A stretch of DNA of 39,257 nucleotides from contig QHOS01000047.1 of assembly GCA_003219415.1 (NCBI GenBank), forward strand, positions 1 through 39,257, given 5' to 3'. This document shows positions 16,357-24,456 of this stretch, piece after piece (the first letter of the stretch is position 1; every line of letters starts with the position of its first letter). A program made the position numbers and the translations under genes. Origin of the DNA: Verrucomicrobiota bacterium (GTDB lineage: Bacteria; Verrucomicrobiota; Verrucomicrobiia; Chthoniobacterales; UBA10450). The notes beneath the pieces are model-generated. The model was not told the origin of the DNA. It ran no database searches and saw only the letters and a list, made by a program, of their open reading frames with translations.

Positions 16357-16619
16357 CAAATAGAATCTTGCGCGTTCGGCCCACCACAGTGTGAAAACGC
16401 GCCGCGCAATTTCGGTGCTATTTGCTAATCGCAGCGCATATGATTTTTCATCTGGCGATTTCATGATCGCGTACATTTGTTCGAATGCATCGCGCAGGTC
16501 ATAGTCGTTTGCGGCATGCGCGCGATCTTGTACAAAGCGGCAGCTATTTTGGGATGCGTTGCTTGCGGTCTGGCTATAGTCGCTGTCAAAAATCTCGCAA
16601 AAGAGTCGCCCAAGACCGA

Positions 16620-16649
16620 TTGCGCATACCCTCCCGGGTATATTATATT
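16620..16649 (+). promoter_or_regulatory. Promoter of the RcnR-like repressor operon
   Basis: TTGCGC at 16620-16625 and TATATT at 16644-16649, separated by 18 bp, resemble a sigma-70-type -35/-10 pair. Transcription would start at about 16656, directly at the GTG start codon (16657), so the message may be leaderless. No Shine-Dalgarno is present upstream of that GTG. Confidence 0.55.
16626..16641. promoter_or_regulatory. Palindromic CsoR/RcnR-type operator
   Basis: ATACCCTCCCGGGTAT: 6-bp inverted arms around a C-tract core, lying exactly between the -35 and -10 elements and 16 nt upstream of the repressor start. CsoR/RcnR-family sites are short A/T-flanked palindromes with a G/C tract core. 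The position predicts autorepression relieved by metal. Confidence 0.72.
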
Positions 16650-16656
16650 TTCACTC

Positions 16657-16935
16657 GTGGCTCATACCATTGGAGGCAAGAAGAAGCTCATCAACCGGGT
16701 GCGAAGGCTCCAGGGGCAGATTGATGCTGTCGAAAAAGCCATCCACGAGGAACAGGATTGCGGAAAGGTACTGCAGCTCATCGCGGCTGCCCGCGGCGCG
16801 CTCAACAGCCTGATGGCCGAGATCCTCGAAGGCCATATTCGTTTTCACATCGTCAATCCTGACGGAAAGCCGAAATCGAAACAGGCTGGCGCCGCGCGGG
16901 AGCTGATCGCCGTGGTGCGGAGCTATCTCAAATAA
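16657..16935 (+). CDS. RcnR/CsoR-family metal-sensing repressor
   Basis: 92 residues from GTG 16657 (V/M-A-H-T-I-GGKKKL). All-helical DUF156 repressor: RVRRLQGQIDAVEKAI..DCGKVLQLIAAARGALNSLM..ILEGHIRFHIV. With this start, His3, Cys35, His60 and His64 fall at the positions that bind Ni(II)/Co(II) in E. coli RcnR, whereas FrmR keeps Cys35 and His60 only. That register is strong support for the GTG start over any upstream start. It should bind the palindrome in its own promoter and release it on metal binding. The P1B ATPase gene begins 16 nt downstream, so the two form an operon. Confidence 0.88.
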   Translation: MAHTIGGKKKLINRVRRLQGQIDAVEKAIHEEQDCGKVLQLIAAARGALNSLMAEILEGHIRFHIVNPDGKPKSKQAGAARELIAVVRSYLK

Positions 16936-16951
16936 CAGGACGCTTGAAACC

Positions 16952-18715
16952 ATGAACATCGAGGCAGCACTCGAACGGACAGCAGCTGGCGGCCACATTA
17001 CCGACGATCATAATGACCGCGACGATGACCATGATCAGGGTCGCGAGCACTCAGTTACCGCGGGTGAATATGTCCGCCTCGGGCTGATGGCGCTCGTCAT
17101 CGTCGCAAGCCTGACCGGATGGTGGCGGCATTGGATGTTGCGCGACTGGCTTGCATGTACGGCCACACTTGTCGGTGGATTCCCCATTTTCAAAGAGGCG
17201 TGGGAGAATCTGCGCAAGCGGCGCATGACGATGGAGCTGTCCATGACGCTGGCGCTCGTCGCCGCGCTTTGCATCGGGCAGTTTCTCACCGCGCTCGTCA
17301 TCGCGTTCTTCGTGCTCTTCGCCGAGATGGTCGAAGGCTACACAGTTGGCAGTGGGCGGCGTGCGATCCAAACCTTGATCGACGCCCTGCCGCGTCAGGT
17401 GAGAGTGCGGCGTGGCTGCACGATCAACACAGATGGCGTGCTCGAAGTGCGCGTCGAGAAAATCGGGCGTGACACCACCTTTGGCAAAATCATCGAAATC
17501 GTCGAGCAGGCGGAAAAGTCTCGCGCGCCCGTGCAGCGGATCGCCGACCGGCTCGCGGCGGGACTGGTCTACTTCGCGTTCGGAGCGGCGGCGTTCACAC
17601 TTATTGTCACGCGCAATTTCACTTCGACCATCGCGGTGATCATCGTCGCTGGCGCGTGTGGAGTGGCGGCGGGCACGCCACTGGCCATTCTCGCCGGAAT
17701 CGGAAGCGCTGCGCGTCGCGGCATCATCACGAAGGGTGGGCTTTACCTCGAGCAGCTCAGCCGCATCGACACTATCGTTCTGGACAAAACCGGCACGCTC
17801 ACGCTTGGAATTCCCGAAGTGACCGCCGTGCGAGCAATCAATAACGCGACAGAGAATGACGTGCTCCAGACCGCTGCCATCGCCGAGCAACATTCCGAGC
17901 ACCCGCTCGGAGAAGCGATCGTACGTTGTGCCCACGAGCGCAATTTGCCGCTGCACGAGTATTCGCAACTGCGTTACTCGCCGGGAAAAGGGATCGTTTG
18001 TGAGGAATCGAGCACACGCATCTTCGTCGGAACCCGCGCTCTTTTTGAAGAGAATGGCGTGCCGGTTCCGGCAGACGTACTTTTCGAAGTTGAGGGTGGT
18101 AACGGCGCTGGCAAAACTGTTGTGCTGGTCGGGCGCGACCAAAAGATTCTTGGCGCCGTGACCCTGGCCGATCAGCTTCGTGCCGAAGCGAGGCAGGCAG
18201 TGAACGATCTCAAAGCGCAGGGTTATCGCGTCATTCTGTTGACTGGTGACAGCTCCGATACCGCACGTGCCATCGGGCGCGAACTGGGCGTCGATAAAGC
18301 GATCGGCGATCTTTTGCCCGAGCAGAAAGTGGAAAAAATTCGCGAGCTGCTGCGTACGGGCCGCAAAGTGGCAATGGTCGGCGATGGCGTGAACGATGCG
18401 CCCGCACTGGCTGAAGCCACGGTGGGTGTCGCGATGGGACAGGGCAGCGATGTCGCGCTGGAAACCGCCGACGTTACGCTTATGACCAGTGATCTCTCGC
18501 GTCTCGTGGAAGTGCTCGCGATCAGCAAGCGCTGCTATCGCGTAATTATGTTTAACTTTTGGGGAACAATCGGCGTGGATACCGTCGGCATTATATTGGC
18601 GTTTTTCGGTCTGCTTGCGCCGATCATAGCGGCGCTCATTCACGTCGGCTCGGAATTGGCTTTCATTCTCAATTCCGCCCGGCTATTCCGCCAACAACCA
18701 CCCAGACCTTCTTGA
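16952..18715 (+). CDS. P1B-type metal ATPase lacking the actuator-domain core
   Basis: 587 residues, shorter than the usual 640 or more. The N-terminus has a His/Asp-rich stretch (residues about 14-31) and no CxxC domain. TM segments 1-4 precede GSGRRAIQTLIDALPRQVRVRR (to 154). The next residues, GCTINTDGVLEVRVEKIGRDTTFGKI, correspond to the region after the TGES loop in relatives, so about 70 residues carrying the actuator core are missing. TM6 reads AGACGVAAGTP, with Gly234-Ala235-Cys236 at the usual CPC/SPC place. The P and N domains are intact: DKTGTLT (Asp278), SEHPLGEA, LLTGDSSDTA and GDGVNDAP (Asp478). The last helix (HVGSELAFILNSARL) resembles the HEG(G/S)T region of Co-type pumps. 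Role: metal transport, or now a degenerate or regulatory form. Confidence 0.88.
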   Translation: MNIEAALERTAAGGHITDDHNDRDDDHDQGREHSVTAGEYVRLGLMALVIVASLTGWWRHWMLRDWLACTATLVGGFPIFKEAWENLRKRRMTMELSMTLALVAALCIGQFLTALVIAFFVLFAEMVEGYTVGSGRRAIQTLIDALPRQVRVRRGCTINTDGVLEVRVEKIGRDTTFGKIIEIVEQAEKSRAPVQRIADRLAAGLVYFAFGAAAFTLIVTRNFTSTIAVIIVAGACGVAAGTPLAILAGIGSAARRGIITKGGLYLEQLSRIDTIVLDKTGTLTLGIPEVTAVRAINNATENDVLQTAAIAEQHSEHPLGEAIVRCAHERNLPLHEYSQLRYSPGKGIVCEESSTRIFVGTRALFEENGVPVPADVLFEVEGGNGAGKTVVLVGRDQKILGAVTLADQLRAEARQAVNDLKAQGYRVILLTGDSSDTARAIGRELGVDKAIGDLLPEQKVEKIRELLRTGRKVAMVGDGVNDAPALAEATVGVAMGQGSDVALETADVTLMTSDLSRLVEVLAISKRCYRVIMFNFWGTIGVDTVGIILAFFGLLAPIIAALIHVGSELAFILNSARLFRQQPPRPS

Positions 18716-18776
18716 CGGCTGGGCTACGTTCTACTGCGAGAACCAAACTCTAGCCTGCGCCGAACATTGATCTGCG

Positions 18777-19577
18777 ATGGCGCTGGCAGCCTTTGGCGAC
18801 AGCAAAATAATGGATGGTCAAATCACTCTCTGGCAGGTCGTCGCGGCCTATGTTTTCGCCCTTGCCGGTGGATCCATCAGCACATCACTGCACTTAGCGC
18901 ACAAGCCGCTTTGCGCGCTGATTAGTTTCGCAGCCGGAACCCTTCTGGGCGTAACGCTCTTTGCCATTTTGCCCGAAAGCTTGGGCGACAGTGCTTGGTG
19001 GGCTGTAGCTTTGGCGGCGGCAACTGGATACGCCCTGTTTTTCTTCATCAGCAAATACGTCCACCATGTCTGCCCCGCCTGTGCGGCCAGCCACTTCGAC
19101 GCAGACGCGACGCGACATTTTAGTGAAATCGCGACTGCGCTGATTGTGGCACTGGCGATTCACAGCACGACCGACGGTTTGGCGTTGGGAATTCAACAGG
19201 AGGCTCCTGCAACGGACGCGACGAAGTGGTCGCTGTTCGCTGCGCTTTGCATTCACAAAGTTCCGGAGGGCCTCGCACTGGGGAGTCTTTTGATTGGCGC
19301 TGGTTTGCAACGCAGCGGTGCGCTCGGCTGGGTTGCCGCAGTCGAAGCAACGACTCTCCTCGGTGGCGTGATTGGCTATTTCTTCCTGGCGAAGGTTTCC
19401 ACGTTTTGGCTCGGATTAATCATGGCGCATGTCGGCGGTGGATTTTTCTATCTGGCCGTACACGCGGTATTGGGAGAACTGATCAAGCATGGAAAGGCAC
19501 TTGTGCTGACGAGCTTTTCTGCTGGGTTGGCCTTGATTGGGATTCTTAACATTTGCTTAAGGATGCTCGCGCCCTAG
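18777..19577 (+). CDS. ZIP-family metal transporter
   Basis: 266 residues, about eight membrane segments. The two signature helices are present: HSTTDGLALGIQQ (TM4) and HKVPEGLALGSLL (TM5), the His/Asp/Glu metal-binding pair of ZIP proteins. A His/Cys-rich loop (KYVHHVCPACAASHFDAD) precedes TM4. ZIP proteins move Zn(II) or other divalent ions into the cytosol. ATG 18810 (MDGQITLW) is an alternative start. It lies 61 bp after the ATPase, same strand. Confidence 0.9.
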   Translation: MALAAFGDSKIMDGQITLWQVVAAYVFALAGGSISTSLHLAHKPLCALISFAAGTLLGVTLFAILPESLGDSAWWAVALAAATGYALFFFISKYVHHVCPACAASHFDADATRHFSEIATALIVALAIHSTTDGLALGIQQEAPATDATKWSLFAALCIHKVPEGLALGSLLIGAGLQRSGALGWVAAVEATTLLGGVIGYFFLAKVSTFWLGLIMAHVGGGFFYLAVHAVLGELIKHGKALVLTSFSAGLALIGILNICLRMLAP

Positions 19578-19681
19578 CGATTGCATTTTGCGTCATGCAC
19601 TCATTCCATTATTGCGACAAAAGCTTTGGAGCCTGATTAAGTATTGTTGTGACTGAATCCATGAAAACTTAATGCCACATC

Positions 19682-20584
19682 ATGTCTCGCGGACATTCAC
19701 ATTCGCTCGCGAATTTCGATCGCGCATTCATCATCGGAATTCTACTGAACTCCGGGTTCGTCGCGATCGAAGCGGTCTTTGGTTTCTTCGCCCACTCGCT
19801 CGCATTGCTCGCCGACGCGGGTCACAACTTCGGCGACGTGTTGGGGCTGGTGATGGCCTGGACGGCCAGCTATCTCGTTAGGCGTGCGCCGACTCGCCGC
19901 CACACTTACGGATTCCGTGCGTCTTCAATTCTCGCTGCGCTCGGCAACGCGATTATCCTGCTGGTTGTTACGGGGGCGCTTTCGTGGGAGGCAATTCGGC
20001 GGCTGATCCATCCCGAGCCCGTCATGGGAACGACCATGATCTGGGTCGCTGCGGTTGGTGTCGTTATCAATAGCGTAACCGCTCTGATGTTTATGTCAGG
20101 CCGCAAACGGGACCTGAATTTGCAGGGCGCCTTCATGCACATGGCGGCCGACGCCGCGGTCACGTTCGGCGTCGTGGTCGCGGGCATCGCGATTTACTTC
20201 ACGCAATGGCTCTGGCTTGATCCGCTCATTAGTTTGCTGATCGGTGTCGTCATCGCGGTCGGCACTTGGGGATTGCTCCGCGAGTCACTTAATCTCTCGC
20301 TGGCTGCCGTACCCACGGGTATTGATTCCGCCGCCGTGGAAAATTATCTCTCCAAACTGCCCGGGGTTGCCAAAGTCCACGATCTCCACATTTGGGCCAT
20401 GAGCACGACGGAGATCGCGCTTACAGCGCATCTCGTAAAGCCAGATGGAAAGATCGACGATCCGCTTTTGGCTCGGATCCAAGATCAACTGCACGATCGC
20501 TTCGGCATCGGGCATATGACCATTCAACTGGAATGTGGCGGCCCCGATAGCTTATGTGCGCAGGAGTCCGCGCACGTGGTGTAG
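19682..20584 (+). CDS. Cation diffusion facilitator (CzcD/ZitB type)
   Basis: 300 residues with six TM helices and a C-terminal cytosolic domain. Zinc-site residues are seen as DAGHNFGD in TM2 and HMAADAA in TM5, the HD-HD set of Zn/Cd-proton antiporters. The N-terminus MSRGHSHS is a short metal-binding leader. The C-terminal LPGVAKVHDLHIWAMSTTEIALTAHL is the ferredoxin-like dimer domain. It exports excess Zn(II) or related metals in exchange for protons. Its stop codon TAG is the first three bases of a perfect inverted repeat (20582-20606). Confidence 0.94.
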   Translation: MSRGHSHSLANFDRAFIIGILLNSGFVAIEAVFGFFAHSLALLADAGHNFGDVLGLVMAWTASYLVRRAPTRRHTYGFRASSILAALGNAIILLVVTGALSWEAIRRLIHPEPVMGTTMIWVAAVGVVINSVTALMFMSGRKRDLNLQGAFMHMAADAAVTFGVVVAGIAIYFTQWLWLDPLISLLIGVVIAVGTWGLLRESLNLSLAAVPTGIDSAAVENYLSKLPGVAKVHDLHIWAMSTTEIALTAHLVKPDGKIDDPLLARIQDQLHDRFGIGHMTIQLECGGPDSLCAQESAHVV

Positions 20585-20606
20585 CCACGCTCTTCATTCG
20601 TGGCTA
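20582..20606. repeat. TAGCCACG...CGTGGCTA palindrome containing the CDF stop codon
   Basis: Perfect 8-bp arms 20582-20589 and 20599-20606, 9-nt loop. The stop codon of the CDF gene (20582-20584) is the first triplet. It may double as a transcription terminator, though no T-run follows. Confidence 0.75.
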
Positions 20607-20616
20607 GCTTTGATTA

Positions 20617-21954
20617 GTGCATTCGTTTCGTTACCGCGACGGGCATCTCTACTGCGAAGACGTCGATCTTGCCCGTGTCGCGGAGGAGCTCGGCACGCCG
20701 ACTTATGTTTACAGCGCGGGGACAATTCTCGATCACTACGCGCGACTGGATACTGCGCTTCAGTCTCTCGATCACCTGATCTGTTACGCAGTCAAAGCAA
20801 ATTCAAATCGCGCGATCCTGAAGTTGCTCGCCGATGCGGGCGCAGGTTTCGACATCGTTTCGGGCGGCGAACTTTATCGTGTGCTCGCTGCTGGTGGCGA
20901 TCCCGCCAAATGCACGTTCGCAGGCGTGGGCAAATCGCGAGAGGAGATCGAGTACGCGCTAGAGCAGGGGGTTTACAGCTTCAATGTCGAGAGTGAAGCG
21001 GAACTGGAACAGATCGATCGCATCGCGGGCGTAAAAGAAACGCGCGCGCCGATTGCATTGCGCGTGAATCCCGATGTCGATCCGCATACGCACGAGTATA
21101 TCTCGACCGGTTCGCGCGAAAATAAGTTCGGCATCGCGCTGGATCGCGTCGCTGCGGTTTACGAGCAAGCCGCCAAAATGTGCAACGTCGAGATGGTTGG
21201 CATCCAAATGCATATCGGCTCGCAAATTGCAGAGGCGAAGCCCTTCGCGAGCGCGATCGGAAAAGTGGCGCCCATCGTGCGAGAGCTGAAATCAAAATAC
21301 GGAATCAAGTTCCTTAGCATTGGTGGCGGCATGGGAATTGTTTACCGGCGCGCACTCGAGAGCGGATCAGGCAAATGGTGGCGCGATCACGGTGGCGAAT
21401 CGTTTGCGTTCAGCGTCCGCGATTATGCGGATGCGATTGTGCCAGAACTGTGCCAGTTACATCTTCGCGTTCTGGTGGAGCCTGGTCGTTTTCTTGTTGG
21501 CAACGCCGGTGTGTTGCTCACACGCGTGCGTTTCATTAAAAAATCGGGTGCGAAGAAGTTTGCGATTGTCGATGCTGGGATGAACGACCTCATTCGTCCT
21601 GCGCTTTATCATAGTTATCACGAGATTGTGCCGGTCTGTAGGGCGTCCGCCGCGGCGGACGCCAGTCAAAATTCGATTACGGGCACGAGCAAAAGGGCTG
21701 AGAAGATCGACATTGTTGGGCCGGTATGCGAGTCGGGCGATTTTCTTGCTCTGGATCGGGAGATGCCTGAGCTCCATGAAGGCGATCTGCTCGCCATCAT
21801 GAGCGCCGGCGCGTACGGCCTTGTGATGGCTTCCAATTACAATTCGCGTCCGTTGCCCGCGGAAGCGCTGGTTCGTGGCAACCAGCTTGCGCCGATTCGA
21901 AAACGGCAAACTTGGGAGGATCTAGTGGCGGGAGAGATCGATCCGAAGTGGTAG
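20617..21954 (+). CDS. lysA: Diaminopimelate decarboxylase
   Basis: 445 residues from GTG 20617. Fold-type III PLP enzyme making L-lysine from meso-diaminopimelate. PLP lysine Lys60 (CYAVKANSN) is seen, with FDIVSGGEL, RVNPDVDPHTHEYISTG, MHIGSQI, SIGGGMGI, VEPGRFLVGNAG and active-site Cys in GPVCESGDF. Between EIVPV and EKIDIVGP the protein carries an extra CRASAAADASQNSITGTSKR stretch, encoded by a 22-bp perfect palindrome (21642-21663) plus flanks, in frame, in a surface-loop region. The stop TAG lies inside the inverted repeat of a second element (21946-22026). Expected function is retained, since all catalytic motifs are intact. Confidence 0.93.
   Translation: MHSFRYRDGHLYCEDVDLARVAEELGTPTYVYSAGTILDHYARLDTALQSLDHLICYAVKANSNRAILKLLADAGAGFDIVSGGELYRVLAAGGDPAKCTFAGVGKSREEIEYALEQGVYSFNVESEAELEQIDRIAGVKETRAPIALRVNPDVDPHTHEYISTGSRENKFGIALDRVAAVYEQAAKMCNVEMVGIQMHIGSQIAEAKPFASAIGKVAPIVRELKSKYGIKFLSIGGGMGIVYRRALESGSGKWWRDHGGESFAFSVRDYADAIVPELCQLHLRVLVEPGRFLVGNAGVLLTRVRFIKKSGAKKFAIVDAGMNDLIRPALYHSYHEIVPVCRASAAADASQNSITGTSKRAEKIDIVGPVCESGDFLALDREMPELHEGDLLAIMSAGAYGLVMASNYNSRPLPAEALVRGNQLAPIRKRQTWEDLVAGEIDPKW
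21642..21663. repeat. 22-bp perfect palindrome inside lysA coding sequence
   Basis: Reads GGCGTCCGCCG followed by its exact complement, preceded by TGTAG. It codes in frame for ASAAADA-type residues near position 342 of LysA. It resembles the GTAGGG-headed intergenic palindromes nearby. Confidence 0.85.
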
Positions 21955-22062: not shown

Positions 22063-22767
22063 GTGATGATAAAACGCTTCTTACTCGTTTATTTTTTGTC
22101 GATATTTGCGCTTGGCTCCCAAGCGGCTTCCCCGGTGTCGGGCGAATATATCATTCTTGTCGGTGGCCCATCGATGTATCAATGGGAAAAGTACAAGACT
22201 TATCCGCACGATCATTGGTGGGCGAACTTTATTCGGGCTGCGCGTATACGCACCGAACAATTGCGAACCGAGCTCGGATCGGACGCAAAGATCACTTGGC
22301 TCGTTTACCGACAGGGTTATGAAGATCGCGCCAAACAGGAACACCAGGACCTAATCAGCTTGATTGGTTCCGTGCGCGATAAACTTAATCTCAACCTCGT
22401 ATGGTTTGGCCCGGGTTCCGCGGTGATTAACTATCTAAACAATGGCCAGCCGCGAGATCAGGTGAAGGTCATCGGCTTTGAATATTTCGGCCACTCGAAC
22501 CGGGCGTGTTTCATGTTCGATTATAGCAACAATATCGACAGTGCTTGTAAATCGTGGTTGCATGATAGCGAGCTTACGAAGATCAATCGGCGGGTTTTTG
22601 CTCGCCACGCCTACGCGAAGAGTTGGGGCTGTCATACCGGTGAGGAAATGTCGAAGAAATGGTACGCCGCTACGGGTGTGCACATGATTGGTGCAGTCGG
22701 AAAGACTCAATACATGATGGAAGAGCTGCCTGTCCTCGTTTCACAGACCGACAAGTGGGTGAACTAA
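22063..22767 (+). CDS. Secreted protein with possible caspase-like Cys/His residues
   Basis: 234 residues with a signal peptide (FLLVYFLSIFALGSQAA). The mature part opens GEYIILVGGPSMYQWEKYK, a beta strand and loop at the start of an alpha/beta fold. Later blocks are LNLVWFGPGSAVINYL, KVIGFEYFGHSNRACFMFDY and HAYAKSWGCHTGEEMSKKW. His in YFGHS and Cys in WGCHTG, each following a hydrophobic strand, match the spacing and context of the catalytic His and Cys of clan CD (caspase/CHAT) peptidases. That reading is inference from pattern only. I know no characterised homologue. A conserved secreted hypothetical is the safe call. It stands alone after lysA. Confidence 0.65.
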   Translation: MMIKRFLLVYFLSIFALGSQAASPVSGEYIILVGGPSMYQWEKYKTYPHDHWWANFIRAARIRTEQLRTELGSDAKITWLVYRQGYEDRAKQEHQDLISLIGSVRDKLNLNLVWFGPGSAVINYLNNGQPRDQVKVIGFEYFGHSNRACFMFDYSNNIDSACKSWLHDSELTKINRRVFARHAYAKSWGCHTGEEMSKKWYAATGVHMIGAVGKTQYMMEELPVLVSQTDKWVN

Positions 22768-23925: not shown

Positions 23926-24015
23926 TAAGATTTAGATCGACATCTGTCAGGGGTTTTGCGATGAAGCCTTTCGGGGCTCGATGGGACTTAACAAGAACCT
24001 CAACAGAAAGAGATT

Positions 24016-24456
24016 ATGGACTGGAAAAAATTCTTCATCGCATTCGTTGCAGCGTTTGGTTTCATCTTCCTGTTTGGCTTCCTCTGGTACGGCAAGCTGA
24101 TGCATGGTGCGCATCAGGAAGTGCCAATACTTTGGCGAACCGAAGCCGATTTTGGCAATCACTTCTCAACGCTCGTTTTTGGGCACATTGTGATGGCATT
24201 CTTCCTCACGTTACTTTGTGCACGTTTTGTCCCGGGGGGTGGCCCAGGCGCCTGCGCGACGCTGGCGATTCTTGTAGCGCTGATATATGCCGGAGCTGAC
24301 CTGATCACTTTCGCGGTACAGCCCCTGACGACCAAGATCCTCTGCGGTTGGATTGTTGGCGACTTGATTCAATTCGCGATTGCTGGCGCAATTATCGGCG
24401 CGATCTACAAGCCAGCGCCTGCGCATACTACGTTTGTAAAGGAACGCTCGCCTTAA
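24016..24456 (+). CDS. Four-TM membrane protein, tandem paralogue 1
   Basis: 146 residues with four hydrophobic helices. It begins MDWKKFFIAFVAAFGFIFLFGFLWYGKLM and ends in a GAIIGAIYKP motif. The next gene encodes a protein of the same size and plan (W at about 40, ending GAIVGAIYKP), so the two are tandem duplicates. The layout resembles small DUF1761-like membrane proteins, but I cannot name the family with certainty. No catalytic residues are evident. Confidence 0.75.
   Translation: MDWKKFFIAFVAAFGFIFLFGFLWYGKLMHGAHQEVPILWRTEADFGNHFSTLVFGHIVMAFFLTLLCARFVPGGGPGACATLAILVALIYAGADLITFAVQPLTTKILCGWIVGDLIQFAIAGAIIGAIYKPAPAHTTFVKERSP

Follow-up and report, generated by a model that had tools for sequence, protein, structure and literature searches.

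The question raised by this locus is whether a P1B-type ATPase gene that lacks the core of its actuator (A) domain encodes a working protein, is a recently damaged copy, or is an error of assembly. The gene lies in DNA from a bacterium that shares its genus with a genome deposited under the name Candidatus Udaeobacter; the whole stretch that was analyzed (39,257 nucleotides) is called the window below. The open reading frame (positions 16952–18715, + strand) runs from ATG to TGA in an intact frame and encodes 587 residues, without 60 codons of the A domain. Its product scored 448.6 bits against the curated family profile TIGR01525 (cut-off 346.25) and 362.8 against TIGR01512 (cut-off 313.5). 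It contains membrane helices, as in P1B ATPases, together with the DKTGT phosphorylation motif (residues 278–282, positions 17783–17797, + strand), the HP motif (residues 317–318), and GDGVND, the GDGxND hinge motif (residues 477–482, positions 18380–18397, + strand). Two features of P1B ATPases are missing, an A domain with a TGE loop and a CPx motif with both cysteine and proline. At the CPx position, residues 234–236 (17651–17659, + strand) are Gly-Ala-Cys (GAC), which keeps the cysteine and lacks the motif proline.

The break in the A domain falls at positions 17414–17419 (+ strand), where R154 is followed by G155 (GGC, 17414–17416), which directly adjoins C156 (TGC, 17417–17419). The match of the window protein to the Pfam E1-E2_ATPase profile begins only at profile position 74 of 181, and in the intact orthologue L035 profile positions 3–181 are matched. 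A first-pass annotation of this DNA had described a skipped actuator core, GAC in place of CPx, and untouched DKTGT, HP, and GDGxND motifs in an open frame, and all of these are present in the frame as described. No TGE was found upstream of DKTGT, which speaks against a TGE-bearing A domain elsewhere in the protein, the outcome that the annotation had named as contrary to its account. Its estimate of about 70 missing residues was too high, as comparison with the nearest orthologue gives 60 codons (180 nt).

The predicted structure of the window protein also lacks the A fold. When AlphaFold2 was run on shallow alignments (14 sequences for the window protein and 13 for the intact protein), the window model (mean pLDDT 72.0) retained the P and N domains, mostly at high pLDDT, and no residual A domain was present, residues 145–192 being below 50 and containing zero strands. 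In the intact-protein model (mean pLDDT 74.6), eight strands lie within residues 149–231. A structure prediction for a residual A domain had been proposed at the outset, and its outcome agrees with the loss of the A-domain core. The best PDB match of the window protein is 7qbz ("Cadmium translocating P-type ATPase", E 1.3e-91), a longer protein in which chain residues about 168–226, located between the two matched pieces, have no counterpart in the window. The SPC motif of 7qbz aligns with the window GAC and, near the C terminus, 7qbz has HEGST where the window protein has HVGSE. We take 7qbz to be a P1B-4 pump. The marks of the P1B-4 subgroup are an SPC motif and HEG(G/S)T near the C terminus, and both are absent from the window protein, which has GAC and HVGSE instead.

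The nearest orthologue (sister) is a 97% identical gene in the same-genus genome of Verrucomicrobia bacterium AV125 (G076 C74, locus L035, QHQO01000185.1). Its protein of 647 residues contains exactly 60 extra codons at the junction, including the TGES loop (SSITGESLP), and the two loci are alike in the type of repressor encoded upstream. The DNA around the gene is 97.6% identical to the sister contig upstream, with two 1-nt gaps, and 96.8% identical over 4,527 nt downstream, with no gap, so the 180-nt gap stands out against nearly gap-free flanks.

To place the gap among relatives, 83 genomes of the family were searched, own genome included; in the best relatives, the match was split in two by additional sequence. 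Of 568 relatives, the best 80 were fetched, so that the resulting census covers part of the clade members. It comprises 23 fetched loci besides the window, with duplicate fetches of one contig counted once; L139, apparently the L050 locus again, was left out, and L027 and L041, whose sequences do not extend to the GAC position, were taken in as close orthologues. The A domain is readable in 21 of the 23 loci, L040 (Ns) and L041 (contig start) being the two unreadable ones. TGES is kept in all 21 readable clade relatives among the best 80 of 568 fetched. A search of 213 genomes of the order, own genome included, considered only matches at E ≤ 1e-100 and found them in 11 genomes, again with the own genome counted; among the 10 others, 8 were readable at the A domain and TGES was present in 8/8. 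Thus, the same deletion was found in 0/21 readable loci (83 family and 213 order genomes searched, best 80 of 568 fetched), and the junction DNA was matched at full length only in the own genome among the matches listed for the 83 family genomes. The orthologue L027 (G018) is one codon shorter in its A domain (VVA-ETIII), and the contig carrying it stops just past TGESLPV. The first-pass annotation had asked whether related Verrucomicrobia have the deletion in common, and these counts answer in the negative: as far as the relatives are readable, the deletion is, on this sequence comparison, a singleton.

A gap seen in one genome could be a real loss or an error of assembly. We favor a real, very recent in-frame deletion that would leave a dead pump, to which we assign a probability of about one-half. 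If so, a 180-nt in-frame piece encoding the A-domain core would have been lost very recently, and only here as far as was seen, probably by illegitimate deletion between two CGGC repeats and next to a tract that may derive from a related lineage. In the sister, the two ends carry in-register copies of CGGC 180 nt from each other, although the window junction reads CTGC, not CGGC, which counts against this model of the deletion. The competing explanation is an assembly or library artefact, in which two pieces that may stem from co-occurring strains were joined into one contig with the A-domain core left out, while the living bacterium has a normal pump; we regard it as a substantial possibility at a little under even odds. 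The 4-nt in-register microhomology in the sister argues against such an artefact, as does the fact that the break is in frame, for which the chance expectation is one in three. The window contains no run of Ns, and the ends at the break carry no long repeat: when flanks of about 120 nt were compared, no exact repeat exceeded 7 nt, and the 7-nt one is out of register. A k-mer collapse is thus not the obvious cause, and collapse driven by a repeat was rejected because any in-register repeat at the break is at most 4 nt. Also against an artefact, the missing 180 nt were not found elsewhere in the own assembly.

Other observations favor the artefact. Three of nine other orthologous family loci are interrupted at or close to this spot: G079 has a 301-N gap over it, the contig of G018 stops within the A domain, and that of G017 begins about 324 nt past the junction position. 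Three of the 14 base changes found only in the window (compared with four close relatives) fall within the first five codons past the junction, and purifying selection on the remainder of the gene appears undisturbed. In addition, a tract with raised divergence from the sister contig (17417–17704, + strand, far end approximate) begins exactly at the junction, as it would in a chimeric contig. The densest 330 nt of divergence from the sister within 16443–21944 starts at 17413–17417 and holds 27 of 164 mismatches, a cluster reached in 0/2,000 uniform shuffles; we give this result little weight because it is post hoc, the uniform null is too simple, and other parts of the contig are mosaic as well. 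A probability computed for the substitutions at the junction, likewise post hoc and with a uniform null, is given equally little weight. Against the artefact, tracts of the same contig that are equally or more diverged have no such gap. Positions 22083–22322 contain 37 mismatches in 240 nt, positions 24003–24242 contain 34 in 240 nt, and positions 19083–19322, in a gene for a ZIP-family transporter, contain 25 in 240 nt, a divergence of ∼10% compared with about 1–3% around it, which suggests recombination or strain mosaicism there. One recombination event that swapped the tract and lost the 180 nt would also explain the signs at the junction. The recent in-frame deletion that the first-pass annotation listed among three options is therefore retained as the best-fitting of them, with assembly error as its close rival.

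If the shortened gene is real and its protein is made, the consequences for the transport cycle can be considered. Passages of PMC10654040 describe the A domain as the built-in phosphatase of P-type pumps. The truncated protein could still bind ATP and become phosphorylated at D278; with the TGES loop gone, it would not be dephosphorylated and should stall rather than pump. We infer this stalled phosphoenzyme from the missing A domain. It is also conceivable that a protein without an A domain works, either as a phosphorylatable metal sensor or as a pump dephosphorylated in trans, both of which the first-pass annotation had put forward. The frame is open, the DKTGT, HP, GDGVND, and GAC motifs are intact, and the P and N domains are still modeled with mostly high pLDDT. 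The dN/dS ratio between the window gene and its sister is 0.117 (0.094 when the 12 codons that follow the junction are excluded), and outside the junction only 1 of 11 base changes found solely in the window alters the protein, a pattern with no sign of relaxation, yet no proof of selection after the loss. The dN/dS value that the annotation had called for is thus low, at about 0.1, but it was mostly shaped before the loss and tells little of selection afterward. A free A domain that might act in trans was not seen among the PF00122 matches of the genome, the other three of which belong to P-type ATPases of ordinary appearance, one of them truncated at the end of its contig. Since the deletion is present in none of the 21 readable relatives, the comparison lends no support to a conserved sensor or to a pump assisted in trans, and we regard a working protein of this kind as very improbable. 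The same low standing applies to its more specific form, a truncated protein retained as a membrane metal sensor that is phosphorylated and unable to dephosphorylate on its own, which we consider highly doubtful. No P-type ATPase lacking an A domain was found in the literature searched by title and start of abstract.

Upstream of the pump gene, positions 16657–16935 (+ strand) encode a metal-sensitive repressor with a PF02583 match and residues H3, C35, H60, and H64, which together identify the RcnR/FrmR type; downstream are genes for a ZIP-family metal transporter (18777–19577, + strand, PF02535) and a CDF-family cation efflux transporter (19682–20584, + strand, PF01545 and TIGR01297). The repressor scored 90.5 of 133 against the FrmR equivalog cut-off and 75.7 of 138 against that of RcnR, and neither name was given because both scores are below the cut-off. 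This repressor is probably the regulator of the window pump. The residues H3, C35, H60, and H64 presumably correspond to the ligand set of RcnR, and by analogy this RcnR-like set hints at Co, Ni, or Zn as the metal.

Each of the three GAC plasmid loci that were opened carries an annotated metal/formaldehyde-sensitive repressor gene immediately upstream of the pump gene, and H3, C35, H60, and H64 are present in 4/4 repressors (the window and these three loci). By a strict sequence pattern, a repressor gene was found in 6 of 21 further stretches, equal to 5 of 19 distinct loci when the overlaps L035/L131 and L036/L134 are merged, several of the stretches being short; the Bosea GAC loci gave no match to this pattern. 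Because the strict pattern occurs in only these 5 of 19 distinct further loci, the pairing of repressor and pump is, as far as sequence patterns detect it, not general in the GAC clade.

The GAC motif was placed in a tree of 41 rows from 39 hand-picked loci, which left out GAC loci such as L045, L047, and L050. All 18 GAC rows, window included, fell on one side of a single branch with support 100/100, and this branch was present in 100% of 200 bootstrap trees. The members come from Verrucomicrobia, Bosea, Omnitrophota, and Bacteroidota and from plasmids of Novosphingobium, Rhodanobacter, and Methylorubrum, and the alignment of 13 intact proteins shows no variation in V-A-G-A-C-G, A-A-G-T-P, and T-G-E-S. 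These results support the first-pass suggestion that GAC denotes a separate subclass: the motif is the mark of one well-supported P1B clade of proteins predicted to be otherwise normal pumps. It is independent of the deletion, because the readable GAC relatives keep the TGES loop. From its sequence features, we class the window gene as one for an ordinary P1B metal exporter of the GAC type in a soil bacterium of the Chthoniobacterales. No description of a GAC motif in P1B pumps was found in the literature searched by title and start of abstract, and the word GAC did not occur in the eight papers scanned for it. The subgroups P1B-1 to P1B-7 are named in PMC4932525, and GAC is absent from its passages on them.

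Several other pumps depart from CPx or from full length. CSC-type plasmid pumps (L143 from Streptomyces and L144 from Shinella) resemble the GAC pumps in lacking the proline of CPx and are placed beside the GAC clade, on a branch whose support (93/85) falls short of the level taken as firm, but they differ in having the CSC motif, a separate clade, and different gene neighbors. Three loci of the same bacterial family (L017, L024, and L026) encode P1B pumps with SIPCTFVLAGPSA at the metal site, IPC standing for CPx, and the two of them placed in the tree (L017 and L024) group on a long branch of their own. Kinship with an antimonite pump, considered in view of an AntR gene beside a plasmid homologue, was rejected, because the motif in that pump is CPC and its place in the tree is outside the GAC clade; the literature searched by title on this point held nothing useful. 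In plasmid p1META1 of Methylorubrum extorquens AM1 (L145, 2773–4635), the C terminus of a GAC pump is shortened and altered, and an IS21-family element (ISMex13) comes next; this pump, too, looks like a broken copy. In a Verrucomicrobiota MAG (L050, 3812–5799), a GAC pump is split past the phosphorylation site into ORFs of 388 and 282 amino acids and appears to be a broken or mis-sequenced copy.

A class of pumps without an A domain would, if true, break the accepted P-type cycle, and the evidence above points to one damaged or mis-assembled copy, not to a class. What keeps its interest, which is modest, is a well-supported P1B clade that has GAC for CPx and that is in part encoded beside a His-Cys-His-His repressor.
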